Assembly: GCF_000002995.4 (NCBI RefSeq)
Contig: NW_025062479.1
Location: 581,001-645,000 of the forward strand
Direction of reading: 5' to 3'
Length of the DNA: 64,000 bases
From: Brugia malayi
Taxonomy: Eukaryota > Nematoda > Chromadorea > Rhabditida > Onchocercidae
Shown: positions 8,032-48,902 of the stretch, piece after piece
Numbering within the stretch: position 1 is the first letter of the stretch
Layout of the letters: every line of letters starts with the position of its first letter
Notes under the pieces: generated by a model
The model's input: the letters and a program-made list of their open reading frames with translations, nothing else
The model's database searches: none
What the model was told of the DNA's origin: nothing
Program-made: the position numbers and the translations under genes

Positions 8032-9025
8032 AAGCTAATTGGACAGATAACAAACAAGGAATTTGAAATTTGATATTACTAAAAGAGGCACATACAAAAG
8101 GAAAGTCCTTAAATCCAATTCAATTTTTCATTAAAGTTTTTTCCATGAAATGAAATATTTACTTTGAATAGCTGTAGCATAGATGCCACCATAACAGAAA
8201 CTTGACTGCTAGCAGCACCAATAACAGCTGCAACTGGATGATGCTGGTAGATGGGTTTAGAACCATCGGAGCAATAAATCTCTTCCGCTTGCGACATTAT
8301 CGTTTTGATGAATACCAAAGTTTGTTCCAATGCATACGAATCAACTGAGCTTAAGCAAATAAGCTTCTAAGCACTTTTCCATTAACATTTGCAATCATTA
8401 TTATAAGTGCTAATAATGGGTAATGCTAGTCAGAAAATATTGCTTCTGTCAAGCACTTTTTAAAGCAAATTCTAGACTGATTCGGCTGTGCTAACAACAT
8501 GAGAAAAGCAATATAAAAAATTCAAAATTTAAATTTTGAAAAAAGAATGGTTAAGAAATTTGATGTGTTATATTATTGCCGCTTTCCCTTTTCAATTTTA
8601 AAATTACTTTAATCTGATTTATCATTCTTTTTTGCTACAGGAAAGCTTAAAATTTTTGATCTCGAAACTTTTAAATAATCATTCCGAAGAAAGTGAGTAA
8701 TTGAATGAACAAGGATTTACTTTGTAAAAACTAAAATTCACCATGTATCAAGAATCTGAGCACCAAGCAAAATGCCCGGTAAAATTGTCTCATCATTATT
8801 AACCAAATCTAATGCATAGAGCATTGCTTGAAGTCGTTGTACACCTTGCGCTGCTTTCAGAACACCACACTCAGAACCATTGAAACCCGCTTCATGTACA
8901 GGGAAGAGACCTCCCAGTATTATATCACCTTTCAGAAATACTTGACGACCAAAGATGATCGATGAATTTTCAGTTAGTAAAATGACGAGAATGAGACGTA
9001 AATAAGCGAATGAATGAATTAACAT
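251..9025 (-). CDS. Metabotropic glutamate receptor (class C GPCR), group II/III-like
   Basis: Multi-exon gene read right to left. The start at 9025 gives a signal peptide ([17 protein letters not shown]) before [13 protein letters not shown], the start of the Venus-flytrap domain; an ATG further upstream would add a non-hydrophobic leader. Exons seen: 8743-9025, 8163-8349, 7837-7889 ([17 protein letters not shown]), about 7680-7732, 7280-7438, 6890-7022, 6100-6250, 5585-5815, 5300-5402, 4985-5132, the cysteine-rich linker at 4690-4840, then membrane segments at 4300-4490, 3830-4130, 3404-3690, 3205-3239, 1121-1287 (seventh helix, FFAPKVYI) and tail exons 921-1018 and 251-558. Phases join at the junctions checked ([24 protein letters not shown]). 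The conserved ligand-lobe pieces [16 protein letters not shown] and SDSWG are kept. GGLFPVHE and LGAQILDTC resemble groups II/III more than group I. The tail ends VTSL, which fits a class I PDZ ligand. Expected role: glutamate sensing through Gi/o at the neuronal plasma membrane. Confidence 0.9.
1934..2910 (-). CDS. Unrecognised 295-residue protein nested in a receptor intron
   Basis: Two exons, 2635-2910 and 1934-2545, joined in phase ([13 protein letters not shown]). I do not recognise the family. There is no signal peptide or membrane helix. The sequence is rich in beta-strand-like stretches such as [15 protein letters not shown] and [14 protein letters not shown], and ends in a Ser/Glu-rich acidic tail. 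Base composition is clearly higher in GC than the surrounding intron, and codon use looks coding. The whole gene lies between glutamate receptor exons 3205-3239 and 1121-1287 on the same strand. An open frame continues 27 nt above the ATG up to a TTTTGCTAG acceptor, so either the mRNA is trans-spliced there with a very short 5' UTR, or another exon lies upstream. The second option cannot be excluded, because the frame would also join the receptor exon in phase. Confidence 0.7.
2938..2952 (-). promoter_or_regulatory. Candidate trans-splice acceptor for the nested gene
   Basis: Read on the minus strand, a T-rich run ends in GCTAG 27 nt before the ATG at 2910. In nematodes such a site so close to a start usually receives a spliced leader, which would let a gene inside another gene's intron make its own capped mRNA. 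It could equally be an ordinary cis acceptor. Confidence 0.4.
7783..7981. repeat. Source half of a 199-bp perfect inverted repeat
   Basis: This segment contains receptor exon 7837-7889 and intron on both sides. Its reverse complement occurs without any mismatch or gap at 10627-10825 (coordinate sum constant at 18608). Confidence 0.9.
8000..8027. repeat. Poly-A tract of 28 bases
   Basis: Uninterrupted A run in a receptor intron, just outside the perfect inverted repeat. The partner copy near 10580-10595 has only a short interrupted T/A tract here. Confidence 0.9.
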
Positions 9026-9418
9026 ATGAATTTCGTCTGTTACTGTATTGTCGTCGTTCTTTCCTGCTACACGTACCGTTGTTATATTAATTACTGCATG
9101 CAAAGACTCCCAAGAAGATATTGTCGCAAGAAGAGCAAAAAATGTCTCGTAGAGTCAGCATTTTTTTGGATACAAAATCATCGATGCAGACAATTTGATA
9201 CCTTCTTTCCCTACATTTAGAATCTTCTCTGAAAATTATTCTAATTATTCAGAATTCAAAAAATGAGCAATTTGAATTTCGTGATGTTTTCAATGAATGA
9301 ATAAAATTATATGAAAGGCGACCAATTTTATCACACAAAATAACTAGTTTGCAAATGGCGGAAATAATAATGACAGCAAGGAATAGCGGAAAAGACAATG
9401 ATAAAAAGGTGTAATGAA
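9026..9418. other. Intergenic, receptor 5' flank
   Basis: AT-rich. It must hold the receptor promoter and the 3' end of the 9419-9710 gene, but no TATA box or other distinct motif stands out. Confidence 0.4.
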
Positions 9419-14451: not shown

Positions 14452-14670
14452 TTAATAATAAGATTAATATTAATATAATAACTAGTATAATAATAATACT
14501 ATCCTGCTGTAATTAATATAATAATATTATTAACCATTATTATTTTTATTACTGCTGCTATAATATTAATATTAATCACTAATAATAATAATGTTATTAG
14601 TAATATTGCTAATAATAATTATTGCAGGAATAATAATAATAATTATTATTATTTATAAATTATTATTATT
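14452..14670. repeat. Cryptic AAT/ATT simple-sequence region
   Basis: Interrupted runs of AAT, ATT, TAATA and ATTATT over about 220 bp, including a near-palindromic TAATAATAATTATTATTATT stretch near 14631-14655. Typical slippage-prone DNA. Confidence 0.8.
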
Positions 14671-14864
14671 ATTGTGGCGACAATGTTATTTTTACAATTA
14701 TTTAAATTCATGCAGTACTGCATTTCGGTTTTGATGTAATTAGATTTCAAGTCTTACCTGACTGATTGCTGCTATGTGATAAGCTAAGAGTTAGATATGG
14801 AATGGGAAGAAGTAATGTTAGAAACAAACAAAACTATTTGATTTTGTGATGTTAATTTTGAAGT

Positions 14865-17865: not shown

Positions 17866-18719
17866 ACTAATCTTTCATCATAATAATTGGATAGACTATG
17901 TGCAAGTTTATATATTGTTAAAATATATTTGCAAATTAGTTTAAAAACTTTTAAAGCAGCTAAAAACAATAGCTTTAACAACTAATAACATTACCAGCAC
18001 AGTGACCCAATGACATTGCATGTTGGTCATGTAATGTTTTTATTCTTCGGTTAATTTAAATTACAAAATTGCAGGAAATATTAGAGTGCTAATAAGATTA
18101 ATTCAATCTTCTTGGCTAAGGATAAATTAGCATTGCAGTACAGCTAAAAGGTGAAATATGCTGAATATTCAAAAAACATCGTTTGAAAAACTTTAGTCAA
18201 GTAGTGATAGCATGTAATTTTCCGCCAATAAATATCGGTACTGGAATTAATTTTAATCGAAATTTCCTATTAATAATAAAGGACTGTAAAACATTTTAAT
18301 TAGCTTTAATTTTAAGAGATATTTTTTTAATAGCCACAACTTATCTGAATATCAAGAAAATCTTGGAAAGAAATTGTCATTTTGAAGAAATTTAAAATGT
18401 TGATAATAACTGAAAATATAAATCGAAATAATTGACAATAATAACATTAGAAATGAGTTCATTACCACAATATAAGTCATCCATTTAATTTCATATTAAT
18501 GATCAATTAAAAAAGTCTCATTTGAGAACTCATGTGAAGAAATTAGCGAGCAAACGAATCATTCTGCCAATATTAATGCTAAAATACGTGCACACACTCC
18601 GACAGGCCATTTCATCCCGGTAAATACAAGAAAATCTTTTGGGCAGGAAAAGCCACAAAGGGGGTGGGCAAGTATTCGGGTAACAATCAAATTAGGAAAC
18701 AAAACAGATTACTCAATGA
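17866..18719. other. Left flank of the palindrome
   Basis: AT-rich and gene-free. From about 18540 the sequence resembles the far flank of gene C (reverse complement of about 35185-35380), sharing GAAATTAGCGAGCAAACGAA, so the duplicated unit was originally longer than the near-identical arm. Confidence 0.5.
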
Positions 18720-18722
18720 AAA

Positions 18723-19172
18723 TTTGCATATGTTCCGTCCTCTTAGAATAGTATATAACAAGCTCCAGTAGTCATTCACTTCATTATTTTCTCGGTGAGT
18801 GAGGTGGGTGTCTTTTCAAATTGTCTTTCTTTTGTTTCATCTCACGTGGGTTTCGAGTTGTCCGCGTAAATGATTTGTGTGTAAATAACGGAACTTTTTA
18901 CGGAACTGAAAAGGTCAGATGAACTAGAATTTATTGAGAATCGACGATTGAAAATTTGCCCGCCATCTGATTGATCATTAGATCAGGGTAGAAGTAGTCG
19001 AAGTCTTCTCAAAATTGACATTCCTTAGCATCTGCTTTGCTGGACAATTCTAGTGGCCACCACTATTAGTTGTTTGATTTATTTTCTGAAGTATTATTGG
19101 CGGTATTTGTAACTTAAGAAAGTGACGACCTGTTAGAATTAATTTTGATATTATAATAATATTTAGTCTAGA
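18723..19172 (+). promoter_or_regulatory. Shared upstream module, copy A1
   Basis: Holds TATATAAC (about 18753), then ATTTTCTCGGTGAGTGAGG (a possible 5' UTR donor), a CACGTG E-box near 18844, and a block reading CGGAACTTTTTACGGAACTG. The same blocks in the same order precede B1, B2, A2 and C. Confidence 0.7.
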
Positions 19173-20739
19173 ATGGAATCCGAAAATAACAAGACCAGTG
19201 ATGGATATGACCAAAGTTCCAATGGAGTTCCGCTAAAGAAAGATCCCAGAATTTGTGATTCGGCTAAGGTTCCGGCAGCTTTCAGTGAAGGTTACTGTTT
19301 TATGAATACGTTTTGTTTGCCTTCAACTGAAATGAGAATGTTTTTTTTTTTTTTTTTTTTGCTCATAAATATTGCTTCTTTTGTTGAAAATCTCAGGTGC
19401 ACTGGTATCAATCGATCGTGAAAATTTGCCTCAACTTCTGGAGGTGAACAAGTTTCTTAAGGAGGAAATGTCACTCTTAAATACGCGGGCGCATATGTTG
19501 AAAAAGAAATTACCACCAATATTGAACAGTGAGGGGAATGATTTCACTGACGAAGTAAATCGTGTTCATTTTCCATTCATTTCTGATTTATTTGCTGTTA
19601 GCAGAGATGTCAATCTTAAATGTTAATTTTTTCCAAATGCATTTGACATTCAAGTGCATTTTGTAATGTAAAGAATTTTGTTGGCAAAGTTTTATCTGAT
19701 CTTTTAACGTCCTCTTTTCTAGTTTATAAGAATGAAGGTAGAAATGGATAAAGAGAAGGCTCGGGCGAACAAATTGAAGGCATTATGGTTTTCTGAAGAG
19801 AAAAAGATCATTGAAGAAAGATCGAAATTAAAAGATGAAGAAGATGAATGGAAGGAGAAAATTAAGATGAAAGAAAAGCTTACATCCAAAGTGAACGAGC
19901 TTCATGAACAGATATTTGAAAAAACTGTTGGAGATGAATTGAACTTTATTCAGCATAATTTGTTGGTTGAAACAGATCGCTACAATACATTACGAATTGA
20001 CTTTGAAACATTTGAACAAATTGTGCAACAAACTGAACAAGAGTTAAGCCATCAGGAAAAGGTTTGCCTTTTTTCTGTCAATTTGAATTAATTAATCACA
20101 GAAATATGATCTTATTTCCACTCTCTTTTTTCCTTTATATTTAATTTTTCTGTTTGAGTTGCTTTCGAAACAAACTGAATTAGTTATTATAACTGATAAA
20201 ATTATTAAAATTGATAGGATTTGTCATAAAAATGATGTGTTCCAATGTGTTGTGCTGCCTCTTACCTATGTAAGGTTGTTGCTTTGTTATATTAATAAAC
20301 TTGAATGAATCCTTCGATCATTTATCTCGATTGAAGTATTTTTTTTTGTTTTTTTTTTTTTTAAATACATCTTTTTTAGACCTTTGAAGATGACCTGGAC
20401 CAAATGCAAATCATGAATGCAATGGCGCTAATAGAGCGTGACCGTACAATTTGCACATTGGTAAATCAACTGAAATGGATAACTAAAAGATCTATCCGAG
20501 CTCAAAGGTCGTGACCTTATTGGCAAGAACTTTCATTATAATCAAAATTAGTATAGGAAATTAAACCTATCACATTGACGAAGAAGTCAGTAAAGAAGTG
20601 AAAAATGCAAGTAGTAAAATTCATTTTAGTATATAATTAACTTTTACTGTATCAATTTAGTGAGAACCTGACAACAGTAGTGCACACTGGAACTCAAACT
20701 GTCACTGAATTCGAAACGATGTTCGACGATGAAATATAA
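19173..20739 (+). CDS. Coiled-coil family protein A, left copy (A1), 273 residues
   Basis: Five exons: 19173-19290, 19397-19554, 19723-20061, 20380-20507 and 20661-20739, total 822 nt and in phase throughout. Exon 1 gives a polar N terminus (MESENNKTSDGYDQSSNGVP). Exons 2-4 form a long charged coiled coil, for example KEKARANKLKALWFSEEKK and DEEDEWKEKIKMKEKLTSK. Exon 4 would stop at TGA 20512-20514 if unspliced, but the AAAG|GTCGTG donor joins exon 5, ending VTEFETMFDDEI; this ending is conserved in C, so I accept it. No signal peptide or membrane segment. Family unknown; a structural, germline or spindle-type role is only a guess. Paired with B1 about 1.1 kb downstream, with the same upstream module. 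Confidence 0.78.
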
Positions 20740-20883
20740 TTATAAATGAGATTATGTCATTTCCACTTGTATTACTATAAAGTAGCATATTTTAATCGAT
20801 CGATGAAGCAAAAAATTGAAATAGTTTTGAAAAATAATCTCCTAGAATAATTATACGCAGCTCTCAATGCGAGTTTTACTTAC

Positions 20884-21022
20884 TTTTGCCTCCACCTGTC
20901 GCTACTGAATTTGTGAAACCGAGTATATCCTTTGGGTCGATCGCACACGAAACTGGCCACATCCTAAGTTGTGGTTTATCTCCTGGGCCTAGCAAGCGTA
21001 ATTGTGGCAGCGAAATCCTCAT
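20884..21022 (-). CDS. Possible exon opposite to A/B, left copy
   Basis: On the minus strand, between A1 and B1, an ATG opens 46 codons of well-composed protein (MRISLPQLRLLGPGDKPQLR ... SVATGGGK) that ends exactly at a consensus donor A|GTAAGT. GC content is high for the region. The next exon would have to lie inside A1's 3' part and none is apparent, so this may be a captured exon. The plus-strand frame over the same DNA (20886-21077, with an HETGH string) has no splice context. Confidence 0.35.
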
Positions 21023-21276
21023 GTTGTGGGCTTATTTATTGTATCTTTCTTGTAGATTTGTGACTTTGCAAAACTAACGAAGATTGGGAGAAAAGAGAAG
21101 AAACTAGAAATGTAACGAATAAAACTGAATATTATGAGAAAAGCGAATTCTTCCTACCCACAAGAATGTGGAAAAGGAGCGATAGACAAATTGATTAAAT
21201 TTCAAACGCTAAAAACTTGAAAATAATAATTTGATAATGGAAATGAAAAATACAAGGAAACCTAAACAGAATGCTC

Positions 21277-21835
21277 AATGAGTGTGTCCAAAATTTGCAT
21301 ATATTCCGGAATAGTATATAAGAAGCTCCGTAATCATTCACTTCATTATTTTCTCGGTGAGTGAGGTGGTTGTCTTTCCAAATTATTTTTCTTTTGTTTC
21401 ATCTCACGTGGGTTTCGAGTTGTCCGCGTAAATGGTTTGTGTGTAAATAACGGAACTTTTTACGGAACTGAAAAGGTCAGATGAACTAGAATTTATTGAG
21501 AATAGAGAGCTCAAAATTTGCCCGCTATCTGATTGATCATTAGATCTGGGTAGAAATGGTTGAAGGCTAAGAGAGCTTTTTTGTGGTTTACATACAGCAA
21601 ATTTTCATCATTTCATGTGATTGAGTAGTCCTTTATATATCGCCGCCTAAATCCAACTTAGACTAAGTTCCACTCATTCTTTTCCGAACTTATCAAATTT
21701 GACAACACATTCCTTAGCAACTGCTTTGCTGGACAATTCTAGAGGATAACATCGTTGTTTGATTTATTTTCTGAAGAAGTATTAGTGATATTTGTAACTT
21801 AAGAAAGTAACGAATTTCTTTAATTTGGAAGAATT
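21277..21835 (+). promoter_or_regulatory. Shared upstream module, copy B1
   Basis: Aligns to the A1 module: AGTATATAAGAAGCTCC (TATA-like), GGTGAGTGAGG, CACGTGGGTTTCGAG, CGGAACTTTTTACGG, then ATTCCTTAGCAACTGCTTTG and AACTTAAGAAAGT. About 130 bp at 21567-21695 is present only here and in B2. Confidence 0.7.
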
Positions 21836-21867
21836 ATGAAAGAAAGACGTGATGGCTTCAGTTTAAG

Positions 21868-22288
21868 ATGGCATTCGAAAATTTCGGTTTTAACTCAATA
21901 CCGTCCTTGCTTGAAACTATTCAGCAACGCATTGTTGAAATTGATGCGAAAAACGAAGAGCTTGAAGAAAAGATATCGGAGTTTGAGCAACGCGCCAGAA
22001 TGGATGTACCGAATAACCAAGAAACACCGGAAAACGTAAGTCATTTTTAAAAAAAATTTAAATGCTAGAAATCAGAATTTGCATGAAAAATTGAGATTTA
22101 TTCCGAAAACTTAATTTTAGATGCAGCAAAATCAGTCGGATGGTAGTGATTCGGATGAAGAAATTGAAGAATTCCTGCGTGAGTTGTACGCATTTAACGG
22201 CGAAGCGCAGGCGAACGGATTAGCACCAGCGGATGCAACGAACGCAGCGGATGCAACGAATGCAGCGGATGCACAAAATCATCAGTAG
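21868..22288 (+). CDS. Acidic coiled-coil protein B, left copy (B1), 111 residues
   Basis: Two exons, 21868-22035 and 22121-22288, each 168 nt, joined at N|MQQN. Residues 1-50 form an amphipathic, coiled-coil-like helix (IQQRIVEIDAKNEELEEKIS). Residues 60-85 are acidic (SDGSDSDEEIEEFLRELYAF). The tail holds a short repeat of ADATNA. No family recognised; no signal or membrane segment. Start choice: 21868 heads the frame that stays open across the intron. An out-of-frame ATG at 21836 overlaps it and another at 21850 stops after four codons, so the true start would sit behind upstream ATGs unless the mRNA begins below them. Confidence 0.7.
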
Positions 22289-22837
22289 TTTTCCTTTATT
22301 TCATGGATTTCCCTTTTTAAGCATACCTGAAATTGTAAGTGCTACCAAAATATTGTTTATGATAAATAATGTTACAATTTCTCTATCCAGCAGTTTTTTC
22401 CTTCGGTGAAATTTTGTGAACTCATTTCTAAATTTGGTATTAATCTCTCAGTAATTTCTGTTGCGAAGTAGCAGGTTTGGTTTCTCTCTATTTTATTTCT
22501 CGAACATTTTATAGCTAATCTTAGGTATTATGGGCTGTTGCTAATCTCTTCCATTATATCCCCTTTACGAATTACTGGAAGGATCGCATAGCACATTTCG
22601 AAGTTTCATTTAACTCATTGTGGTTCTCTCACTATTTTAACGTCGTAATGGGGTGTGGCACTTCTCACAGCAATTTAGCGCATAATTGAAAACGAACTAC
22701 TTAATGTGGTTCAGTGTTAAAAACGGGCAGTATTCCTTGACCGGTTGGTGTAACGTAAGTAGCGAAGAATGCTAAGATTTAATGGATTCATAGTTATTCA
22801 AATATTTGTAAATTAACTAAAATTGATGACACAACCA

Positions 22838-23262
22838 GTTCAAAGATGTGAGTTTGTTGACAAAAACTTTCATTATAATCAAAATTAGTATAGGAAATTA
22901 AACCTATCACAATGACAAAGTGAGCAAAGAAATAGAAAGTGCAAGTAGTAAAATTTCATTTTAAATATATCATTGACTTTCATTGCATCGATTTAGTGAG
23001 AACTTGACAACAGTAGTGCACACTGGAACTCAATGTCACCGAATTCGAAATGGATGTCCTCTAGCGAACGCTATTTTTGACGATGAAAGATAAACAGATA
23101 TGAGATCTATGTCATTTCTGAATGTATTTTTATAAATATTTTAATCGATAAAGCGAAAAATTGAAATGGTTTTGAAAAATAATTTCCAGAGGTAATAATC
23201 TTCCAGAATTTGCTGGTAAGCACTAGTGAAATAGTGAAATGACCGATCGTATCGCGGAACTC
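22838..23262 (+). pseudogene. Orphan 3' end of an A/C family gene
   Basis: Matches the last intron, last exon and 3' flank of genes A and C, and is closest to C (reverse complement of about 33095-33505), including AATAATCTTCCAGAATTTGC past the gene end. The last exon still opens after TCGATTTAG with SENLTTVVHTGTQ-type coding, but a 3-base loss (GGAACTCAATGTCACC) and further changes alter it, and no exons 1-4 precede it. Remnant of another family copy in plus orientation. Confidence 0.8.
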
Positions 23263-25558
23263 GAAATAATCTCGCAAACCTCCAATTAACTTACATAATA
23301 TATCAAATAAAGTTGTATATAGTCCATAATACTAAAATTTGTGTTAATTGGACATTGGAAATGTAAAACTGTTTCAAATTGTATCATGCAAGCAGCATTA
23401 TTTCAACCTCATCTTTAAGTAAGCTTACCTGCTTGTCCAGATATTTTCAACTGATAGTAAAGATATGTGCATTGTTTAGTATACTAAAAACTACTTCTTT
23501 GTTCCAAATCAAATTTGCTTGCAATATCGAAATGTTGTAAAAGTCTTCTAAGCTGATAGCTTTTCATTCTTTAAGTATAATATTAATACCCGTCCCTTAC
23601 TATATAAAGAGCAAAGATCATCTGATACCCAAAAAAAAATTATTAAAATGAGCGAATGAATCGTTTATCGGCCAACTTTGCCAACCATTAATGAGCGGTT
23701 AACATTAGCATAGTAATCAGTTTCAAAGGTTAGTATTTAACAAAAAATAAATTTGACGCATAGATCTAGAAAAAAGTTAAAAGGAAACAAGTTTTTATTA
23801 TATACATGCCCGGTAAACTAGTCCCGACAATGCTATAATTATCTCTTTGGTTCTGTGATTTAAAATGGATTAGGATTTTTTAAATATAAACTATAAATAA
23901 TTTTCAAAATATTCATCAGTATGTTAGCTGCCAATGAATTATAATTAATAAAAAAGCGAAAGAATTTCTTTGATTGCTCCGCTGAATGTTGTTGTCAATA
24001 ATAAGTTAATATTTAGAAACTTTAAATTTTCAATTCTTGCTGGCATTTTTTTATTTTTGTTATTAAATATTAATAAGTAATAAATTATATTGAAAGGTGA
24101 ATGTAAAATGATTCTTTTTTGTCTCTTTTTTATAATTATTAAAGTTATATGTGACCTTTTTTATTTTATATTTTTTGTTGATTTTAAGGTAACATTCTTT
24201 GCAAATGACATTTGAGTAAAAAAATTGTGGAAATTATAATTTCTGATTCCGATAAACAAAACATGATCGGTGAAAGGTCAGTAATAAACAGTGTGAGAAA
24301 AACATTTTATTTGCTTATTAGCTATATAAATCATATATCATTAATGTTCAGAATTTTTAAGCATAATTAATGCAAAATAAGAACTAAATGTTTAATAAAC
24401 AATTTATATGATAAAGAAAAAATGAAGCAAAATAAACTGGAACCTATTGAAGCAGAAAATGTTCTGTTTTTTAATCCAAAATCAGAAAACTAAATGATTA
24501 GAAAATTTTTAAATTTTCAATATATTTTTGGAGAAAATAAAATATAAAACTAATTAAGTTAATGCTGAAAAATGATATTTGAATTCAAATGCTTAAATTT
24601 GACATATTTTATTTAAATTGTAGAGACAATTGATCCATATTTTTTATTAATTTATACACTTTTATTTTTGATGACAAATGCTCTAAACTAGGCCGCTAAA
24701 CAAAAGCAACAGTTAACTTATTGTAAGATCGGATTCTTTGGTGCCTCTGTCCGAAAAAGATCACTCAAAACTCTAAAAGAATTTTTAGGTAAAAACAAAA
24801 AAAATCGGTCAATAATTAATTTTTTTTTTTTTTTTCAAAATAATTGCAGAAAAACTTTGTTAAATTGAAATACTAATAAGTAGGTACTTATGAGTTACTA
24901 AACAATATGTTATTGCACTGCTCACTAAAAATTCTTCTTTTAGAGTTTTAGAGATTATTAATCAGTCAGTTGCTAAAAAAATGATTTCTGATCAGCAATG
25001 TTAAGAATTAGACCTTTGTGCTATAAAATTTCTTTGCGTTTGCACACACACAAGCAAATAAAATCTTTTGATTCTGAGCTTTATGACAAACTGTTTGCAA
25101 CAGATTAAATGCAAATTTTATTGTTCACGTTGACAGCATCTTACCGATAATATTATTAGCTTTTTTTTTATGTATAAATAGATGTAAGCTATAAAATGCA
25201 ACAATTTTTCAGATAATTTTAGATAATTTCAGAGAATTTTCAGATTTTTTCTTCCTTTTGAATTCACTCATTGTTTCAAATTCTTTGCGTAAGATTCAGT
25301 CCAAAGTAATAGATTTTATGTTTGAAATTTTATCGCATAAGCATTAAATGTCACCCCACCATAACATTATGCCTCATATAGCATTCTGTTCTCGATGGCA
25401 ATCTTGGTTCTGTCCTTGATGACAATCTTGGCTTTGTCTTTGTCCTTCTCTTCGTTTACTTAGCAATAATATGTAGTACTGATGAATGTGTGCTGTTTTT
25501 CAGTCAAAAATTTAATTAAAAATTTGTATATGTCTATAATAATTATATAATCAGAGAA

Positions 25559-26843
25559 ATGGTTCTGAAACTTGCAATATTGGTTATTGTCGTTCTGTCC
25601 ACCTGCGGTATGAGAACATTTACCACTAATGGTAAAATTTCTATAAATGCTTAAATATTATTGCTATAAAGTTTTCTATCAATTAAACTATCTAAAAGAT
25701 ATTGAATGTTTGTTGCAACAAGAAATTTTGCTATTTTTCGACGAATATATTGAAAAATTAGAAATAACTACAGTAGTATTTCAATGATACATCGAAAGGA
25801 ATAGTAAAAGGGACTGAACTTATACTCGTTGAACATCTAAGGCTTATTAATGGTAAGAGGCCTATCTATCTGATGGATTATTCATAACCGATTACTGGCC
25901 AATATTTTCAGAAGAATAGTTTTTTGCCTAATGTTTCTGCTGAAAACCCTTTGTATGTTGCCGAAACTTTTATTTATAATATCATAATTGAATGAATTTA
26001 ATAAATATGAGATAGTAATTAAGAGTCAATTTTTATTAAGACTGTATCAGTAGTTATAATAGCATTCAATAAGATCATTATAGTCGTATCGTTTTTTCCT
26101 TTTTCTTTTTTTAGAATATCAACCAGTAAGATGTCAACGATTAACATACAGAGAAAATAGTTACGTTGGTTACAATATGAAAAATGGTAAAATACGTGGT
26201 GTAGGTAGCACCGCTTACCTGAAATGTCACCTTTATCACAACCTTTATGGCAATAATGTCACTACATGTTCTTTTGATGGAATATGGCGACCAAAGCTTG
26301 GTTACTGTTTCATTTCATTTCAATTATTAAATTCTACTCAATGTTGATGTCATTCTATTCACTATTTAATTTATATTTTATTGCAAGAAATATTGTTCAT
26401 ATGTCATTGTATGATTATTATCTTGCAATCATGAAAGAATTATTTGTGTAATGCTTGGAAAAGAGTAAGGTTAAAAATTCTCAAACCCTTAATTTTAGGT
26501 GTTTGCAAATTGAAACCACAATACGATGGAAACTTTTGCAAACCATATGGATCCGACAGACAACCATTATTGAAATACAGTACAGTAAAGCCTTTTCCAT
26601 CTATCATTGTTGCACCATTAAGTGTGAACTTTAATTTATCGCTTTCATCTATTTTGTCTTCTATGAAACATTTTTTGTAAAATGTGAAATTTTCAGTCAC
26701 TAAAGACTAGACGTGGTACCCTAATAACCATTAAATGTCAACCTGGACAACGTCTTTATGGTAGTGCAATATCTAAATGCACAGATGGCGTGTGGAAGCC
26801 AATTTTGGGAATATGTGCTGATAAGAATAAAACGAGTAATTAA
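25559..26843 (+). CDS. Secreted protein with two sushi (CCP) domains, 168 residues
   Basis: Four exons: 25559-25607, 26115-26300, 26499-26623 and 26697-26843, 507 nt in phase. Exon 1 is a signal peptide, MVLKLAILVIVVLSTCG. Sushi 1 spans about residues 20-80 with cysteines in VRCQ, LKCH, TTCSFDG and GVC and the typical GIWRP tryptophan. Sushi 2 has cysteines in GNFCK, IKCQPG, SKCTDG and GIC with GVWKP. It ends shortly after, DKNKTSN, so it is secreted, not anchored. The GTGAAC donor of exon 3 is chosen because it restores the domain. Sushi domains bind proteins outside the cell (complement-like, receptor-clustering or host-facing roles); the partner is unknown. It is the only intact gene in the palindrome spacer. 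Confidence 0.8.
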
Positions 26844-27547
26844 AATTATTATTTTAATTACTTGTCAATTAGTCATAAAAAATCTTTTGTTGCCTTATTT
26901 TCAATTCCAAATTAGAGTTATTAACTTTATTGGAATTTTGATTCCTTTCTTCCAAAAGTTGGAAGTATTTTCAGGAACTGAATAAACCAAGAAAAATATG
27001 CATGAGTAAAGAATGGGTCGCGAGTTGATAGTTCCATTACTTCATTGGACTCTGAAAAAATTTGATTGATTTGTTGATAAAAATATCGTTAATTGTCGAT
27101 CAGAACTTTTTCACGTTAACTAATTATAATGTATACAAAAAAAAAATGTATTAAATTTTTTGGTTGATAAAAACATCTTAAATAGCTTCTGATTCTACCT
27201 GTATGAAATTACGCATGAGTTCCATAATTGGTCATATTTAAATTGCTTTGGCTAGCTATAATTCCGTCGCGGACTGAACTTATGCATATTTTCGATTTTC
27301 GATAATGTAATAAACCAAAAGTTTCATCGAAAAATTACAATCCTATTGTCTCATTCATTTAGCCATGTAACACATTTCATTTTCATCTTAAGTAATCGAC
27401 ATTCTAGGAAAATTCTGATTTTTACATTTTAGTTGTTTAAAGAATAGTATATCGATGGTTGGTGTTACATTCCTCTATCAAAAAGCGCATTTGTGTCACA
27501 GTATTTAATTAACAATGACATTAATTGTTTTACTTACTGTTCCTTTA

Positions 27548-27800
27548 CTTAAAAAAAGTGTCTTAATCTTAAAAATTTTTTATCTTGAAAGCAATTATGC
27601 AAAAATTTCCATTTTTCCTGATTTGCTGATTAAAAGAAAATCCGGTTTTTGATGTGTCGTTAAATAAATAAATAAAGCGGTTGATTCATATCCCTTCTTA
27701 AGTTGAAGTAATTTTACGCAAAATACAAATTAAACATTTGATTATTTGATAAAATTTTCCAGTATTAGACAAAATTGTTATTCAGGTCTATTTTAAAACT
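27548..27800. repeat. Dispersed repeat, copy 1
   Basis: Direct repeat of 42003-42260, over 90 percent alike by eye, starting AAAAAGTGTCTTAATCTT and running to TTGTTATTCAGGT. Copy 2 has small insertions (ATGATGC; TTGAC). No coding capacity; unknown element. Confidence 0.85.
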
Positions 27801-28513
27801 TTAATAAAAAAATTTCCTAAAAACTTCATTCATACTTGAAATAATTAAAAATCAATCATTTACGCTATTTTTATGACAATAAGCTAAAACTACACTTTAA
27901 AAAAAAACATAGTGTGCCGGCTTATTTTAAGTTTAGATTGTCGTTTGGTTTTTTTTCTGCAATTTTTATTTATTCATTTTATATTTGTACTTTTTCTGAA
28001 ATAATCACTCTTGAAATCTCGACATTTTATTTGTATTTATCAGTTGCGAAAAATACTAATCCTAATATTTAAGAATAAAATAAGTTAAAGTTTTTGAATA
28101 TCTCCTAGATCACAATTAAATATTTTTAAATCTAGCTGCAAAATTTCCTCAACTTAAATAATTCTTTTTTAGTTCAGAAAATTTGCCCTTTTTAAAATGC
28201 TTTTTTTCTTTTTTTTATGGAGGGAAGGATGATTGTTTATGTTGCTTCATCCTCCTCCTCCCCCTAGCCCATAATACCTAAGATTAGCTATAAAATGTTC
28301 GAGAAATAAAATAGAGAGAAACCAAACCGGCTACTTCGCAACAGAAATTACTGAGAGATTAATACCAAATTTAGAAATGAGTTCACAAAATTTCACCGAA
28401 GGAAAAAACTGCTGGATGGAGAAATTGTAACATTATTTATCATAAACAATATTTTGGTAGCACTTACAATTTCAGGTATGCTTAAAAAGGGAAATCCATG
28501 AAATAAAGGAAAA

Positions 28514-28934
28514 CTACTGATGATTTTGTGCATCCGCTGCATTCGTTGCATCCGCTGCGTTCGTTGCATCCGCTGGTGCTAATCCGTTCGCCTCCGCTTC
28601 GCCGTTAAATGCGTACAACTCACGCAGGAATTCTTCAATTTCTTCATCCGAATCACTACCATCCGACTGATTTTGCTGCATCTAAAATTAAGTTTTCGGA
28701 ATAAATCTCAATTTTTCATGCAAATTCTGATTTCTAGCATTTAAATTTTTTTTAAAAATGACTTACGTTTTCCGGTGTTTCTTGGTTATTCGGTACATCC
28801 ATTCTGGCGCGTTGCTCAAACTCCGATATCTTTTCTTCAAGCTCTTCGTTTTTCGCATCAATTTCAACAATGCGTTGCTGAATAGTTTCAAGCAAGGACG
28901 GTATTGAGTTAAAACCGAAATTTTCGAATGCCAT
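28514..28934 (-). CDS. Acidic coiled-coil protein B, right copy (B2)
   Basis: Mirror of B1: exons 28767-28934 and 28514-28681. The predicted 111-residue product is identical to B1, including the ADATNA tail repeat and the out-of-frame upstream ATG at 28966. Identical copies at both ends of a palindrome suggest recent duplication or continuing gene conversion; expression of the two cannot be told apart from sequence. Confidence 0.7.
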
Positions 28935-28966
28935 CTTAAACTGAAGCCATCACGTCTTTCTTTCAT

Positions 28967-29525
28967 AATTCTTCCAAATTAAAGAAATTCGTTACTTTCT
29001 TAAGTTACAAATATCACTAATACTTCTTCAGAAAATAAATCAAACAACGATGTTATCCTCTAGAATTGTCCAGCAAAGCAGTTGCTAAGGAATGTGTTGT
29101 CAAATTTGATAAGTTCGGAAAAGAATGAGTGGAACTTAGTCTAAGTTGGATTTAGGCGGCGATATATAAAGGACTACTCAATCACATGAAATGATGAAAA
29201 TTTGCTGTATGTAAACCACAAAAAAGCTCTCTTAGCCTTCAACCATTTCTACCCAGATCTAATGATCAATCAGATAGCGGGCAAATTTTGAGCTCTCTAT
29301 TCTCAATAAATTCTAGTTCATCTGACCTTTTCAGTTCCGTAAAAAGTTCCGTTATTTACACACAAACCATTTACGCGGACAACTCGAAACCCACGTGAGA
29401 TGAAACAAAAGAAAAATAATTTGGAAAGACAACCACCTCACTCACCGAGAAAATAATGAAGTGAATGATTACGGAGCTTCTTATATACTATTCCGGAATA
29501 TATGCAAATTTTGGACACACTCATT
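28967..29525 (-). promoter_or_regulatory. Shared upstream module, copy B2
   Basis: Mirror of 21277-21835, with the same TATATAAGAAGC, E-box and 130-bp insertion. Confidence 0.7.
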
Positions 29526-29779
29526 GAGCATTCTGTTTAGGTTTCCTTGTATTTTTCATTTCCATTATCAAATTATTATTTTCAAGTTTTTAGCGTTTGA
29601 AATTTAATCAATTTGTCTATCGCTCCTTTTCCACATTCTTGTGGGTAGGAAGAATTCGCTTTTCTCATAATATTCAGTTTTATTCGTTACATTTCTAGTT
29701 TCTTCTCTTTTCTCCCAATCTTCGTTAGTTTTGCAAAGTCACAAATCTACAAGAAAGATACAATAAATAAGCCCACAAC

Positions 29780-29918
29780 ATGAGGATTTCGCTGCCACAA
29801 TTACGCTTGCTAGGCCCAGGAGATAAACCACAACTTAGGATGTGGCCAGTTTCGTGTGCGATCGACCCAAAGGATATACTCGGTTTCACAAATTCAGTAG
29901 CGACAGGTGGAGGCAAAA
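29780..29918 (+). CDS. Possible exon opposite to A/B, right copy
   Basis: Mirror of 20884-21022: ATG at 29780, 46 codons, donor A|GTAAGT after 29918. Same uncertainty. Confidence 0.33.
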
Positions 29919-30062
29919 GTAAGTAAAACTCGCATTGAGAGCTGCGTATAATTATTCTAGGAGATTATTTTTCAAAACTATTTCAATTTTTTGCTTCATC
30001 GATCGATTAAAATATGCTACTTTATAGTAATACAAGTGGAAATGACATAATCTCATTTATAA

Positions 30063-31628
30063 TTATATTTCATCGTCGAACATCGTTTCGAATTCAGTGA
30101 CAGTTTGAGTTCCAGTGTGCACTACTGTTGTCAGGTTCTCACTAAATTGATACAGTAAAAGTTAATTATATACTAAAATGAATTTTACTACTTGCATTTT
30201 TCACTTCTTTACTGACTTCTTCGTCAATGTGATAGGTTTAATTTCCTATACTAATTTTGATTATAATGAAAGTTCTTGCCAATAAGGTCACGACCTTTGA
30301 GCTCGGATAGATCTTTTAGTTATCCATTTCAGTTGATTTACCAATGTGCAAATTGTACGGTCACGCTCTATTAGCGCCATTGCATTCATGATTTGCATTT
30401 GGTCCAGGTCATCTTCAAAGGTCTAAAAAAGATGTATTTAAAAAAAAAAAAAACAAAAAAAAATACTTCAATCGAGATAAATGATCGAAGGATTCATTCA
30501 AGTTTATTAATATAACAAAGCAACAACCTTACATAGGTAAGAGGCAGCACAACACATTGGAACACATCATTTTTATGACAAATCCTATCAATTTTAATAA
30601 TTTTATCAGTTATAATAACTAATTCAGTTTGTTTCGAAAGCAACTCAAACAGAAAAATTAAATATAAAGGAAAAAAGAGAGTGGAAATAAGATCATATTT
30701 CTGTGATTAATTAATTCAAATTGACAGAAAAAAGGCAAACCTTTTCCTGATGGCTTAACTCTTGTTCAGTTTGTTGCACAATTTGTTCAAATGTTTCAAA
30801 GTCAATTCGTAATGTATTGTAGCGATCTGTTTCAACCAACAAATTATGCTGAATAAAGTTCAATTCATCTCCAACAGTTTTTTCAAATATCTGTTCATGA
30901 AGCTCGTTCACTTTGGATGTAAGCTTTTCTTTCATCTTAATTTTCTCCTTCCATTCATCTTCTTCATCTTTTAATTTCGATCTTTCTTCAATGATCTTTT
31001 TCTCTTCAGAAAACCATAATGCCTTCAATTTGTTCGCCCGAGCCTTCTCTTTATCCATTTCTACCTTCATTCTTATAAACTAGAAAAGAGGACGTTAAAA
31101 GATCAGATAAAACTTTGCCAACAAAATTCTTTACATTACAAAATGCACTTGAATGTCAAATGCATTTGGAAAAAATTAACATTTAAGATTGACATCTCTG
31201 CTAACAGCAAATAAATCAGAAATGAATGGAAAATGAACACGATTTACTTCGTCAGTGAAATCATTCCCCTCACTGTTCAATATTGGTGGTAATTTCTTTT
31301 TCAACATATGCGCCCGCGTATTTAAGAGTGACATTTCCTCCTTAAGAAACTTGTTCACCTCCAGAAGTTGAGGCAAATTTTCACGATCGATTGATACCAG
31401 TGCACCTGAGATTTTCAACAAAAGAAGCAATATTTATGAGCAAAAAAAAAAAAAAAAAAACATTCTCATTTCAGTTGAAGGCAAACAAAACGTATTCATA
31501 AAACAGTAACCTTCACTGAAAGCTGCCGGAACCTTAGCCGAATCACAAATTCTGGGATCTTTCTTTAGCGGAACTCCATTGGAACTTTGGTCATATCCAT
31601 CACTGGTCTTGTTATTTTCGGATTCCAT
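30063..31628 (-). CDS. Coiled-coil family protein A, right copy (A2), 273 residues
   Basis: Mirror of A1 with exons 31511-31628, 31248-31405, 30741-31079, 30295-30422 and 30063-30141. Splice sites and predicted protein are the same as A1; the only length change I saw is one base in the intron 1 poly-T tract. Its module carries TATGTAAC where A1 has TATATAAC, so promoter strength may differ although the proteins do not. Confidence 0.78.
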
Positions 31629-32078
31629 TCTAGACTAAATATTATTATAATATCAAAATTAATTCTAACAGGTCGTCACTTTCTTAAGTTACAAATACCG
31701 CCAATAATACTTCAGAAAATAAATCAAACAACTAATAGTGGTGGCCACTAGAATTGTCCAGCAAAGCAGATGCTAAGGAATGTCAATTTTGAGAAGACTT
31801 CGACTACTTCTACCCTGATCTAATGATCAATCAGATGGCGGGCAAATTTTCAATCGTCGATTCTCAATAAATTCTAGTTCATCTGACCTTTTCAGTTCCG
31901 TAAAAAGTTCCGTTATTTACACACAAATCATTTACGCGGACAACTCGAAACCCACGTGAGATGAAACAAAAGAAAGACAATTTGAAAAGACACCCACCTC
32001 ACTCACCGAGAAAATAATGAAGTGAATGACTACTGGAGCTTGTTACATACTATTCTAAGAGGACGGAACATATGCAAA
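31629..32078 (-). promoter_or_regulatory. Shared upstream module, copy A2
   Basis: Mirror of 18723-19172, except the substitution at 32046 that turns the TATA-like box into TATGTAAC. It also keeps GTGTGTCC near 32085, which A1 has lost. Confidence 0.7.
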
Positions 32079-32081
32079 TTT

Positions 32082-33237
32082 TGGACACACTCATTGAGTA
32101 ATCTGTTTTGTGTTTCCCAAGTTGATTGTTACCCTTCTACTTGCCCACCCCCTTTTGTGGCTCCTCCTTAACAAACTGTCCAAAAGATTTTTTTATAATT
32201 TACCGGGGTGAAATGCCCCTTTTCCCCTGACTTGTACACACGCATGTATGTATGTATATGTGTGTGTGGGAGAGAAGGCATTTACTTCACGTGTACTACC
32301 TACTACCCACTCACAACTTTTTAGGAAATGAATAAATTATCAATGTTCAAGGTGGAAATTTACAGAGGAATTTGATGGCGGCCTTTCATCATATTCGTTT
32401 TACTGCCGCTTTTAAAGACTTGTGTAATTGGAATGGCCAATTTGGATTTCCTTGGCCATTGTTTTAAATATCGTTTAATGATTCAAAATTGGCCAAAGTG
32501 TTTCACGTGTAAATGAGGTTTCAAGCAACTTTCATTCTGTTAAAGTTCAATTTAATTTACTTTTAAATTTTTTCGTTGATTGTAGCATGAAAAAAATAAG
32601 TTTTCGGTGTTTTCTTTTTTATCATTCACTGAATCTGTTTTGAAGTTTCATGCTAGGATGGATAGATCTGTTATGTCGCTAAGTCTTTTGTAGTAGTAAC
32701 TTGTAACCAACGATTGCACTCTAAGTCTGAATAAACTTTCTACACTAAGGTATTCCAATTTAGTACCTTTGCAGATTTATTCTTTCAAACTGAAGCTTTG
32801 ATTTCTTTTTATTCGTTAATCGCTTCTTGTAATCGGTTGTAATCATTTTCGGTATTCATTTCGAATTATCTTAAAGTCTTTTTCAATCGTCTCGCATTTA
32901 AATCAAGTATCCGTTATAGATTTTGAAATGTGTGACATCATTTTCTTGGAATGAGATTTGCAATTTGAAATACAAATTGTGGACCAACTTGTAGGTACCA
33001 ATCCACAAGATCACAAATTAAATTGCTGTTACTATTGAATATCGGGTAACATTCTTCGTTAACTATACTTTCGTATAATGAAGAGCACGGTCGGTCATTT
33101 CACTAGTGTTTCCTAGCAAATTCTGGAAGATTATAACCTCTGGAGATTATTTTTCAAAACCATTCCAATTTTTCGCTTTATCGATTAAAGTATTTATAAA
33201 AAAAAACATTCACAAATGACATAGATCTCATATCTGT
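32082..33237. other. Interval between A2 and gene C
   Basis: Starts with a diverged extension of the palindrome flank (to about 32220), then a short TGTATGTATG/TGTGTG run at 32243-32268. The rest, to 33060, shows no gene; 33095-33237 is the 3' flank of C that also occurs at the orphan fragment. Confidence 0.5.
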
Positions 33238-34724
33238 TTATATTTCATTGTCGGACATATCATCATCAGACTGTGAACCATACGTTTCGAATTCGGTGAA
33301 AGTTTGAGTTCCAGTGTGCACTACTGTTGTCAAATTCTCACTAAATCGATACAATGAAAGTTAATGATATATTTAAAATGCATTTTCACTACTTGCAACG
33401 TCTACTTCTTTACTGACTTCTCCGTCAATATGATAGGCTTAATTTCTTATACTATTTTTGACTATAATGAAGGTTTTTGCCAATAAAACTCACAACCTTT
33501 GAACTCTGGCAGAGATAAATTCCAGTTGTTTGGTCAGTATGGATATTGTTAGGTCACGCTCATTTAGTGCCATTTCATGTGCATCTTTTATTCCATCCAA
33601 CTTCTCTTTAAACATCTAGAACCATCATTCATCAAATTTGAATAATATTCATTAATCAACCTTACACAGGTAAGAGGCAGTACAGCACAGCAAAACGTTA
33701 AATCATTTTTATGACGATACAATTCTATAAATTATAGTAACTGATTCAATTTGCTTCGAGAGCAACTCAAACAGAAACATTAAATGCAAAGAAATATAAA
33801 GGAAGGAAGGGAGAGAGAGTGAAAATGAGATCATATTTCTGTGATTAGTTAATTCATACTAACAGGAAAAAGCCAAACCTGTTCCTGACGGATTAATTTC
33901 TGTCTAGCTTCTTCTGCAGATAGTTTGAGCTTGTTCACTTTACATTGTAGTTTTTGACTATGGATTTTATGTTTGATCAGCCGAGCAATTCCCAATTTGT
34001 TGTTATTACTAATGTCAGATAACAACTCACAACATTGTTTTACTATGGGATAAAGATTTTCATGATCCATAAGTTTTTGCTTCCACTCAGTTTTTTTAAG
34101 TTCAAATTCCGATTTTTGTTTCTCAAGGAGTTCCTGCTTTGATTTTCGTAATTTTTCCAATTCTTTTTGCTGAACTTTCGCTTTGTCCCGTTCTATCTGC
34201 ATTGCTGCATACTAGAAAAGGAATTGCTCAAAATCAAAGAAAAATTTGTGAACAGATTTTTTACTTTGCAGAACGCTTGAATGTTACATATACTTGAAAA
34301 GAAAAAAAGAACAATTTAAAACTAAATAATTCAGTGGTCTTTAAGGCTCATTTACCATTTCATTAAAGTTATTTCTTTTTTTTTTCTGTGCTAATAGTAT
34401 TAGGTCTCCCAGCCAACGTAGGTATATTTTCAACAAAGTTATGTTCTCCTTCAGATATTCGTTTCCTTTGATAATATCATTTATTTCATTCTCTGCAACC
34501 GAAGATTGTTGTTCTAAAATTTTCAGCAAAATAACCAACATTTATGAGCGAAAAAACATTCTCATTTCAGTTGAAGGCAAACAAAACGTATTCATAAAAC
34601 AGTAACCTTCACTGAAAGCTGCCGGAACCTTAGCCGAATCACAAATTCTGGGATCTTTCTTTAGCGGAACTCCATTGGAACTCTGATCATATCCATCACT
34701 GGTCTTGTTATTTTCGGATTCCAT
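33238..34724 (-). CDS. Coiled-coil family protein C, diverged paralogue of A, 276 residues
   Basis: Five exons as in A: 34607-34724, 34356-34513, 33879-34211, 33497-33615 and 33238-33340, total 831 nt in phase. Exon 1 encodes the same 39 residues as A. Exon 2 has A's length (158 nt) but reads EQQSSVAENEINDIIKGNEY. Exon 3 is a lysine/glutamate-rich coiled coil (KSKQELLEKQKSEFELKK). Exon 5 repeats A's SENLTTVVHTGTQT and ends DDDMSDNEI. No stop or frameshift, so it appears functional. The near-perfect match to A covers the module and exon 1 and drops at intron 1, while the coiled-coil exons share only scattered residues. No B gene follows it. Confidence 0.75.
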
Positions 34725-35200: not shown

Positions 35201-36433
35201 ACTGTTTTGTGTTTTCCAAGTTAATTGTTACCCGTATACTTGCCCACCCCCTTTTATAGCTCCTCCTTAACAAACTGTCCAAAAGATTTTTTTGTAATTT
35301 ATCGGGATGAACTGTTGAAGTGTATGCATATATTTTAGCATTAATATTTGCAGAATGATTCGTTTGCTCGCTAATTTCTTCTTCATTGTCTTTCAGCTTT
35401 GTCCATTTTTTCATTGTTAGTAGTAAGTATAGAATTTTTGGCAGTAACTGTAGTGATACCTTAGTGATAATTACTTGCTTAGTCACTTCGTTTCAGCTTC
35501 TATATTTTTTTCTCTCAAAATGTCGTGATGATTTATTGCTTATTTTATTATCGCATTAGATATTGAGTTAAAACCAGTTTTAGCTAAAATATTAAAGATC
35601 AGCATTTTTCAAAAAATACTTTGCATGATCTTCATCAAGAGTCACGACTGCTTTGCTTTTTATTAAAAGCGAATTTCTAAAGATTTGAAATATTTTTTGA
35701 GCTAACTTCCTTTCCCCTACTTTTGATGCAAATATCAAAAACAATTTTCGGGAGATTTTTATCCTTGCATACTTTCGCTGATTGCTTTTTTCTAAAATTT
35801 TGCAGAAATGGAAATATGATTTGGTATGATAATTTCTAAAATCAATTGATGAAACATTTATTTTTGGACATCACGATGATTAATTTCATAAGCGTTAAAG
35901 GTAACCATAAGATATTCTACATGAAATATTTGCTGCAGCAATATTTGTTCATTTTGCAATAATTTGATCTGATAAAAGAAGAAAAACAAAAGTGAAATAT
36001 GCAAGAATTTGCTTTATTTTTTCACCTCTACAATTACTGTATTATTGCTCTTTTCTTTCTGCAAACAGACTTTGCAGAAAGTATCAAAAGTTCATTTTAT
36101 AGGTTTAATTGCTGTCGCCACAATGGCAAAGCTATAACGTAATGAACAAAGGCTATTGTTTTAAGTGATTTTAATCCGCTTTGTAACCTTAGCATTCAAT
36201 AAAATCCCTCCCAATTTTCTTCCTTATAAAGCCATTCATTATAGTTCCTTGTTTGGTATGGCTTGATTGTGAGGTGTCTAGCTTGCTTATATCTTTAAAT
36301 GTTTTATAATTAAGTTACATTTGTGTGTTATTTATCAATTCGTTATTGTAATGTTGTATAATTTGTAATGTTAATCTGTGGTTTAATTATCCAAGTTTGA
36401 GGTTTGAATAATAAAGTGTTTCACGAAGTACAG
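35201..36433. other. Non-coding, right flank of the C unit
   Basis: 35185-35380 matches the left flank of A1, with AGCATTAATATTTGCAGAATG. The frame at 35151-35486 crosses this repeat and is not supported as a gene. Nothing else is seen to 36433. Confidence 0.4.
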
Positions 36434-37047
36434 GTAAACAGTACAGATTCGAGAATCTACCAGTATCGAAGACAAAGAAATCAACGATCTGAACTATCAA
36501 GAAAGGAAACCTATTTTGTTTCACAAGGAAACAGGGCAGTAAGAAAGAAATACTAAATTTGCTTTCACAACAATTGCATTTTTATTTTCCAAACTAACAA
36601 TTTCTGTTCAAGAATCCAATCAAATCAATGCTTATTAAATTGTATCTTGAAAAAGCCAGCCATATTTTAAATAATACAAATTTCGACAAAATTGCTCAAA
36701 TTGTTTTGAATTTGAAATAGGAAGAATCCAATAAATTGTATGATAATAAGTTAACATTCTAAAATGCTCCCGCAAAAATGTAAAATTCTAGCACAAAATT
36801 ATAATATAATAATATTTGCAGTATAATTGTATGCCAAGAATTTACTTTAATGAATATATTAATCTACTAATTGGACACCTTCATTTTCAATTTTCTTATC
36901 AATGCATCTTTTTCACTTTTGATTTTTGTTTGTAATCTCAATGAAAACATTTGGTAGAAATGCACGGCTGGACACAATTACGATGCAGTGACAGTAATTG
37001 GACCGAGGACGAAATCCAAACGAGAATTTGTCAAGTATTTGAAGTGA
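36434..37047 (+). CDS. Possible terminal exon pair of an unrecognised gene
   Basis: Exon 36434-36538 (after CACGAAGTACAG, ending at GCA|GTAAGA) reads VNSTDSRIYQYRRQRNQRSE and continues to QGNRA. Exon 36958-37047 (after TTTGGTAG) reads KCTAGHNYDAVTVIGPRTKS, then KREFVKYLK and stop. Both are whole codons and join in phase 0. Residue use is far less AT-biased than the surroundings. The product end is strongly basic. No start exon was found, so this is at best the 3' end of a gene. Confidence 0.33.
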
Positions 37048-48259: not shown

Positions 48260-48858
48260 TCAAGAAGGTGAAGCTATAATACAAAGGTGTCTTGAAGAAA
48301 TTTTTGGATTAAATACGGACAAAATATAAGCAGAATAACCATGTTCTCTCAAAAAGAATAAGCGATCCAATAAAACAAACATTTCTAATGGTGTCTGCAT
48401 CATCGTTTGCAAAAGCTGAAAGAATTGGTACGTACAGTAAGAGTACACGATCAAAAAGGTTAAAAAAAATTTTATACTGCAATGATAAGACTGTGAACTG
48501 CTGTTGTTTAATAACTAATAGTAATAAACAAGTAAAAAAAGTAAAAGACCAGATAAAGAAACATATACGCTAATAAAACATTCCAAAATCTTAAGATTTC
48601 AAGTACTAACCGTAAAAGGTTCAACATATGCGAAATACGGTTCTTGGTCAGTGTAGATCATTCTGTACAACCGATCAGTTTGTAAAACAGCATTTTCGCT
48701 CAATCCTAGTCGAGATGCTAACTTAACTCCAGTATCTTTAACGTCATCAAAACGACAATTTAGCTTACGACATGGTGGTAGTAAGTCTGAAACAAAAATA
48801 CAGTGATATATTGAAATTAAATTCTTTAAAAACCAGTTTTTCTGAAAAATTTCCATGT

Positions 48859-48902
<44 letters not shown>

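Follow-up and report, generated by a model that had tools for sequence, protein, structure and literature searches.

Palindrome architecture and gene content

The window analyzed here, 64,000 nucleotides of DNA from the filarial nematode Brugia malayi, corresponds to positions 581,001-645,000 of chromosome X in the v4 assembly and contains, at ~0.60 Mb and so close to one chromosome end, a near-perfect palindrome whose two arms each carry a pair of genes, designated A and B. A repeat finder delineated the arms as inverted copies of ~3.8 kb each around a spacer of 5,729 bp, with complementarity that rounds to 100% in two blocks (18719-19359/31442-32082 and 19342-22536/28266-31460 in window coordinates). 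Base-by-base alignment of the arms yielded four substitutions, at left/right positions 18755/32046, 22208/28594, 22384/28418 and 22473/28329, and one poly-T length change at 19341, corresponding to a divergence of ~1.0e-3; with four substitutions and one indel in 3.8 kb, the arms are more than 99% identical. The palindrome is real, as 99.9% identity over a 3.8-kb arm is incompatible with chance. Weaker homology runs on for ~115 bp at the outer arm ends (18605-18718 on the left) and breaks off abruptly at the inner ends, 22536 and 28266. The original prediction, made without database searches, had described a near-perfect palindrome with intact A and B in each arm and with paired coordinates summing to 50802 inside and 50801 outside the poly-T change; repeat finding and alignment bore out the structure and reproduced both sums, and the genes are open in both arms. 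The main features are as follows.

18719-22536, plus strand: left palindrome arm, gene A followed by gene B, defined by alignment against the right arm
22537-28265, no strand assigned: spacer, whose full length matches only itself in the genome
28266-32082, minus strand: right palindrome arm, gene A followed by gene B, defined by repeat finder and alignment
19173-20739, plus strand: gene A of the left arm, exons 19173-19290, 19397-19554, 19723-20061, 20380-20507 and 20661-20739
30063-31628, minus strand: gene A of the right arm, product identical to that of left-arm A
21868-22288, plus strand: gene B of the left arm, exons 21868-22035 and 22121-22288, acidic product of 111 amino acids
28514-28934, minus strand: gene B of the right arm, a single Q/E residue difference from the left copy
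20885-21022, minus strand: candidate opposite exon of 46 amino acids, mirror copy at 29780-29917 on the plus strand
22804-23232, plus strand: A-family 3' remnant in the spacer, 85% identical to the 3' end of A' and 76% to the arm's own A
33241-34724, minus strand: gene A' (Bm12098, P0005), a diverged paralogue of A just beyond the right arm, on the same strand as right-arm A

The locus is X-specific, a placement based on assembly identity and published depth: chromosome X measures 24,943,668 bp, its pseudoautosomal region (PAR) begins only at 22.3 Mb, and males carry most of X at single copy (PMC7181701; publications are cited here and below from partial text). Sex linkage, which had been offered as an inference, was thus correct. 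The string "palindrom" has zero matches in the main text of PMC7181701.

Within the spacer, the first 640 bp match the region downstream of a B locus at X:946 kb at 97%, and positions 23666-27493 are a ~80% copy of sequence at X:12.94 Mb. Two short open reading frames in the latter block resemble Sushi domains, with scores (19.3 and 17.3 bits) below the curated Pfam cut-off of 20.7 bits. No Pfam domain was detected at an expectation value (E) of 0.01 or less in the five of six long spacer frames scanned. Across the window, no structured RNA matched Rfam at the gathering score, and no tRNA was found using ARAGORN with the bacterial code.

An X-clustered group of two gene families

Gene A comprises five exons with GT-AG introns and encodes a highly charged protein of 273 amino acids, the same from both arms, which, judged by eye from its sequence, is likely a coiled coil. 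Its homologue in B. pahangi (P0001) is 97% identical over the same full length, that of Wuchereria bancrofti is 79% identical, and one in B. timori covers 75%. A profile search with the A family recovered eight proteins, every one from Brugia or Wuchereria, and the protein searches as a whole found homologues in these two genera only. None of P0001, P0002, P0004, P0005 and P0006 matched Pfam at E<=0.01. Membership of A in DUF4200, a UniRef label on its homologues, was rejected, as no DUF4200 match appeared at E<=1. The names Bm8625, Bm8627 and Bm12098 are absent from the main texts of the literature searched, supplements lying outside the search.

Two diverged relatives of A lie nearby on chromosome X: A' in the window and A'' at X:1088 kb, which matches Bm8627 (P0004). 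A further A 3' remnant occurs near X:946 kb. Between A' and A'', exon 2 contains no amino-acid change among the 54 codons compared, and exon 3 gives nonsynonymous (dN) and synonymous (dS) divergences of 0.083 and 0.093 over 116 codons, a few of them at intron edges; this combination suggests that part of the A'/A'' body is weakly constrained or has been exchanged. A tandem array with a period of ~61 bp lies directly upstream of A'' (C139 (X) 1086424-1087074). On the autosomes, one exon of a distant A relative was found on chromosome 4 (C138; 32% identical over 112 residues), and chromosome 3 (C137) contains three weak A-like places, with E of 0.03, 0.29 and 0.59.

The relatives of gene B that were found are Bm8625 in B. 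malayi and QQG55_36970 in B. pahangi. It is present at six loci, all within X 0.60-1.27 Mb; the first exon is open at all six, and the second shares its stop at five, the copy at X:1264 kb having a different C-terminus with no stop within the stretch examined. Among themselves, the four B loci that lie outside the window share 97-99.6% identity over 3-5.8 kb; their identity is ~90-93% with the left arm and 89-91.5% with the right. Segments carrying gene B stand in both orientations on the chromosome (C139 (X) 946474-952212, 1045625-1050721, 1072709-1077233 and 1262014-1269907).

Clustering on X extends to the DNA matches of both genes. For gene A, 14 of 18 fall inside X 0.59-1.27 Mb, the remaining four being at most 105 bp each; for gene B, the same interval holds all DNA matches of the B half-arm (21/21) and all protein matches (12/12). 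These counts are lower bounds, and the 0.94-1.28 Mb interval is known from sampled B-bearing segments only. A/A' and B constitute an X-clustered multicopy group of two gene families of lymphatic filariae. The palindrome holds intact multicopy genes, A and B being open in both arms and B occurring at six X loci. The possibility that A and B are diverged copies of one protein was rejected (P0001 versus P0009, E 29); besides promoter and 5' untranslated region (5'UTR), their loci also share some downstream flank sequence. This wider family, the presence of A' and an A remnant beside the arms, and the promoter block common to A and B go beyond the original prediction.

The possible opposite exon proposed earlier is open over 46 amino acids in both arms, and otherwise it retains candidate status. 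The stretch occurs at five places, all on X and next to A or B copies, two of them complete (the arms) and three covering residues 14-46 only; it has no match in PDB up to E 10.

Promoter mosaics, arm identity and the probable origin of the palindrome

A block extending from a TATA-like motif into the 5'UTR is common to nine promoter copies (left-arm A, right-arm A, A', A'', left-arm B and the four other B loci). The promoters were painted along 364 informative columns, with B-type defined as agreement among the four other B loci and A-type as the state of A''. The following segments were distinguished.

18470-18718, plus strand: left outer flank, B-type upstream sequence, 231/233 to the B locus at X:1047 kb
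18739-18861, plus strand: B-type promoter stretch within the left arm that runs on from the B-type flank beyond it
31940-32062, minus strand: B-type promoter patch of the right arm, with A-type sequence on either side
32083-32373, minus strand: right outer flank, A-type upstream sequence, 246/248 to A'' at X:1088 kb in the aligned part

The two outer flanks match each other at 141 of 211 columns. From outside the left arm to 18861 the A promoter is B-type with a few exceptions, and thereafter A-type. On the right, the promoter is A-type outside, turns B-type between 32062 and 31940 (16 of 17 columns), and is A-type again. This right-arm patch is likely a conversion footprint, copied in from a B-type donor. 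Either the left arm supplied it, or a further B locus did so before duplication took place; the painted columns fit both. The B promoter within the arm is likewise a mosaic, with A-type sequence in the TATA region giving way to predominantly B-type sequence farther inward. The substitution at 18755/32046 alters the TATA-like motif itself, which reads TATATAA on the left, as in the other eight copies, and TATGTAA on the right.

Exon 1 provides further evidence of exchange. Its 39 residues are the same in B. malayi A, A' and A'', and A differs from either paralogue at 2 of 119 nucleotides, against an overall identity between A and A' of about 41-43%. In B. pahangi, A and A' are also identical over these 39 residues and differ from the B. 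malayi proteins at the same three positions. W. bancrofti A' (P0010) is without exon 1, and the comparison thus covers B. malayi and B. pahangi. The pattern is that of concerted evolution, seen also in the separate assembly of a second species. On the promoter mosaics and the species-specific exon-1 identity, ectopic gene conversion within the A/B family is well supported. Of the earlier alternatives, recent duplication or gene conversion, conversion is supported for the family; the arms themselves fit either process.

Bearing on conversion between the arms are the promoter patch and the placement of the arm differences, each of which has an alternative reading. Every substitution falls within 37 bp of the outer arm end or 329 bp of the inner one; the 3,452 bp in between are free of substitutions (the poly-T indel falls there), and uniform placement produced clustering as extreme in 102 of 200,000 simulations. 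In addition, the guanine-cytosine (GC) content of noncoding sequence is 31.4% in the arms, compared with 27.8% in the spacer and 26.9-27.3% in the flanks. The direction of this difference is that expected from GC-biased conversion, and primate X palindromes likewise show raised arm GC (PMC8981503).

We favor, at a probability of roughly two in three (0.66), an X-linked palindrome formed by inverted duplication of an A-B pair within a multicopy family and subsequently shaped by non-allelic gene conversion, probably including conversion between the arms. Inverted duplication would have put one A-B pair on either side of the spacer, with the outer junction forming through homology in the shared promoter block and the inner junction being abrupt. 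Non-allelic conversion would then have swapped promoter and exon 1 sequence across paralogues, and arm-to-arm conversion would probably have held the arms 99.9% alike, compared with ~89-93% between the arm's B and the other four B loci. The order of these events, and the view that the arms are alike chiefly through conversion between them, are our inferences.

Several points weigh against this account. The end-clustering test was chosen post hoc, after the data had been seen. Illumina polishing, in which reads can be anchored only near the arm ends, might remove differences from the arm interior and leave what looks like a conversion tract; since it could give the same picture, end clustering is not taken as proof, and polishing could also have inflated arm identity as such. 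The raised GC may be inherited from the ancestral sequence. Outside the arm, the A-type standard is one sequence, A''; A' is mosaic there, agreeing with A'' at 159 of 235 columns, as opposed to 144 of 145 in the 150 columns immediately within the boundary. B. pahangi and W. bancrofti were compared as proteins rather than DNA, so that the palindrome is undated. Finally, the right-arm patch could derive from another B locus, acquired before a single recent duplication.

Such a duplication, very recent and arising for example through break-induced replication from the promoter block, is possible and, in our estimate, clearly less probable; the arms would be alike because they are young, and promoter conversion would have taken place earlier, between other copies. 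It accommodates an outer junction inside promoter homology and an abrupt inner junction, and conversion from B into the right arm followed by duplication is as economical as duplication followed by left-to-right conversion. It fits less well with the uneven spread of the arm differences, though polishing could cause that too, and with the exon-1 identity within each of two species, which shows conversion operating in the family. The near identity of the arms might alternatively reflect an assembly artefact, arising from duplicate placement of a single A-B unit or from inclusion of a chimeric palindromic read: the assembly involved manual editing, grafts of sequence from an earlier version and short-read polishing, and few PacBio subreads (N50 8.8 kb, mean 5.9 kb) would span the 13.4-kb structure. 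We consider this improbable, given that the outer flanks differ in paralogue type, the full-length spacer matches nowhere else, the arms carry four differences and the ordinary subread length exceeds one 3.8-kb arm; chimeras from missed adapters, moreover, are not expected to contain a long unique spacer. A transposable element whose inverted termini are very long would also present long inverted arms flanking a spacer, but is more improbable still: each arm contains two genes with introns, paralogues of which occur away from the palindrome, the five of six spacer frames scanned gave no Pfam domain at E<=0.01, and the candidate was rejected because the genome contains a single match to the full-length spacer.

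As to function, analogy alone prompts the working guess that X genes present in many copies under shared promoters may be expressed in a sex- or germline-specific manner. One speculative scheme, which we regard as unlikely, would see an amplified X-linked network evolving under sexual or meiotic conflict: two unrelated families would share one conversion-homogenized promoter block, the copies would be regulated together despite divergence of the A-type bodies, and the palindrome would act as a conversion hub on an X that is hemizygous in males. The more unusual part of the locus is the shared promoter block, kept alike across two unrelated families while A-type coding bodies diverge. In practical terms, short-read studies of B. 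malayi populations or expression may miscount loci as similar as these.

Neighboring features and comparison with known systems

Other features of the window include likely exons of a class C G-protein-coupled receptor at 3717-4127 and 8738-9154 on the minus strand (7tm_3, E 2.2e-21; ANF_receptor below cut-off), a dispersed repeat of ~400 bp at 36113-36569 that recurs on several chromosomes, and smaller inverted or self-complementary stretches, possibly resembling miniature inverted-repeat transposable elements, at 17157-17385/17640-17865, 7775-8165/10434-10833, 14454-14673 and 48837-48918. Elsewhere on the chromosome lies a second near-perfect palindrome (C139 (X) 1255627-1258456/1258705-1261536), with 99.7% identity and a spacer of 248 bp. 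One of its arms matches DUF1759 (E 9.3e-09), and the structure may be an inverted transposon pair; DUF1759 is a domain that we take to be linked to Pao-type retrotransposons.

Within nematodes, the hsp-16 genes of Caenorhabditis elegans reportedly form a near-perfect inverted repeat in which two different genes were duplicated together; that duplication is said to be autosomal and to have shorter arms, and it involves heat-shock genes, unlike the taxon-restricted X cluster described here. Sex-linked amplification in B. malayi itself is represented by a multicopy DUF1759 (OVOC12909-type) gene, for whose copies possible Y-to-Y gene conversion has been raised; it differs from A and B in residing on Y contigs and in encoding a different protein (PMC7181701). 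This X chromosome is marked by low diversity and a neo-X history (PMC8575316, PMC7181701). No X palindrome in a filarial worm is described in the titles and abstract openings of the papers listed by a literature search that left most subscription papers, bioRxiv as a collection and supplements outside; sex-chromosome palindromes among the literature matches listed were from mammals, with additional plant examples.

The closest parallels are the X palindromes of primates and mouse, which share with the Brugia structure a sex-chromosome site, arms more than 99% identical, genes in both arms and signs of conversion (PMC8981503, PMC5997626, PMC9122934). For the Brugia palindrome, assembly identity and the published PAR indicate a site on X away from the PAR. 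Its arms diverge by ~1.0e-3; among primate X palindromes the median is 4.7e-4 (PMC8981503). Its 3.8-kb arms fall short of the large arms, >10 kb, by which mammalian palindromes were defined in mouse (PMC5997626), and it differs from them further in belonging to a worm X and in carrying gene families that are unrelated as far as searched. A short X palindrome in a filarial nematode would offer an independent test of whether hemizygosity favors such structures.

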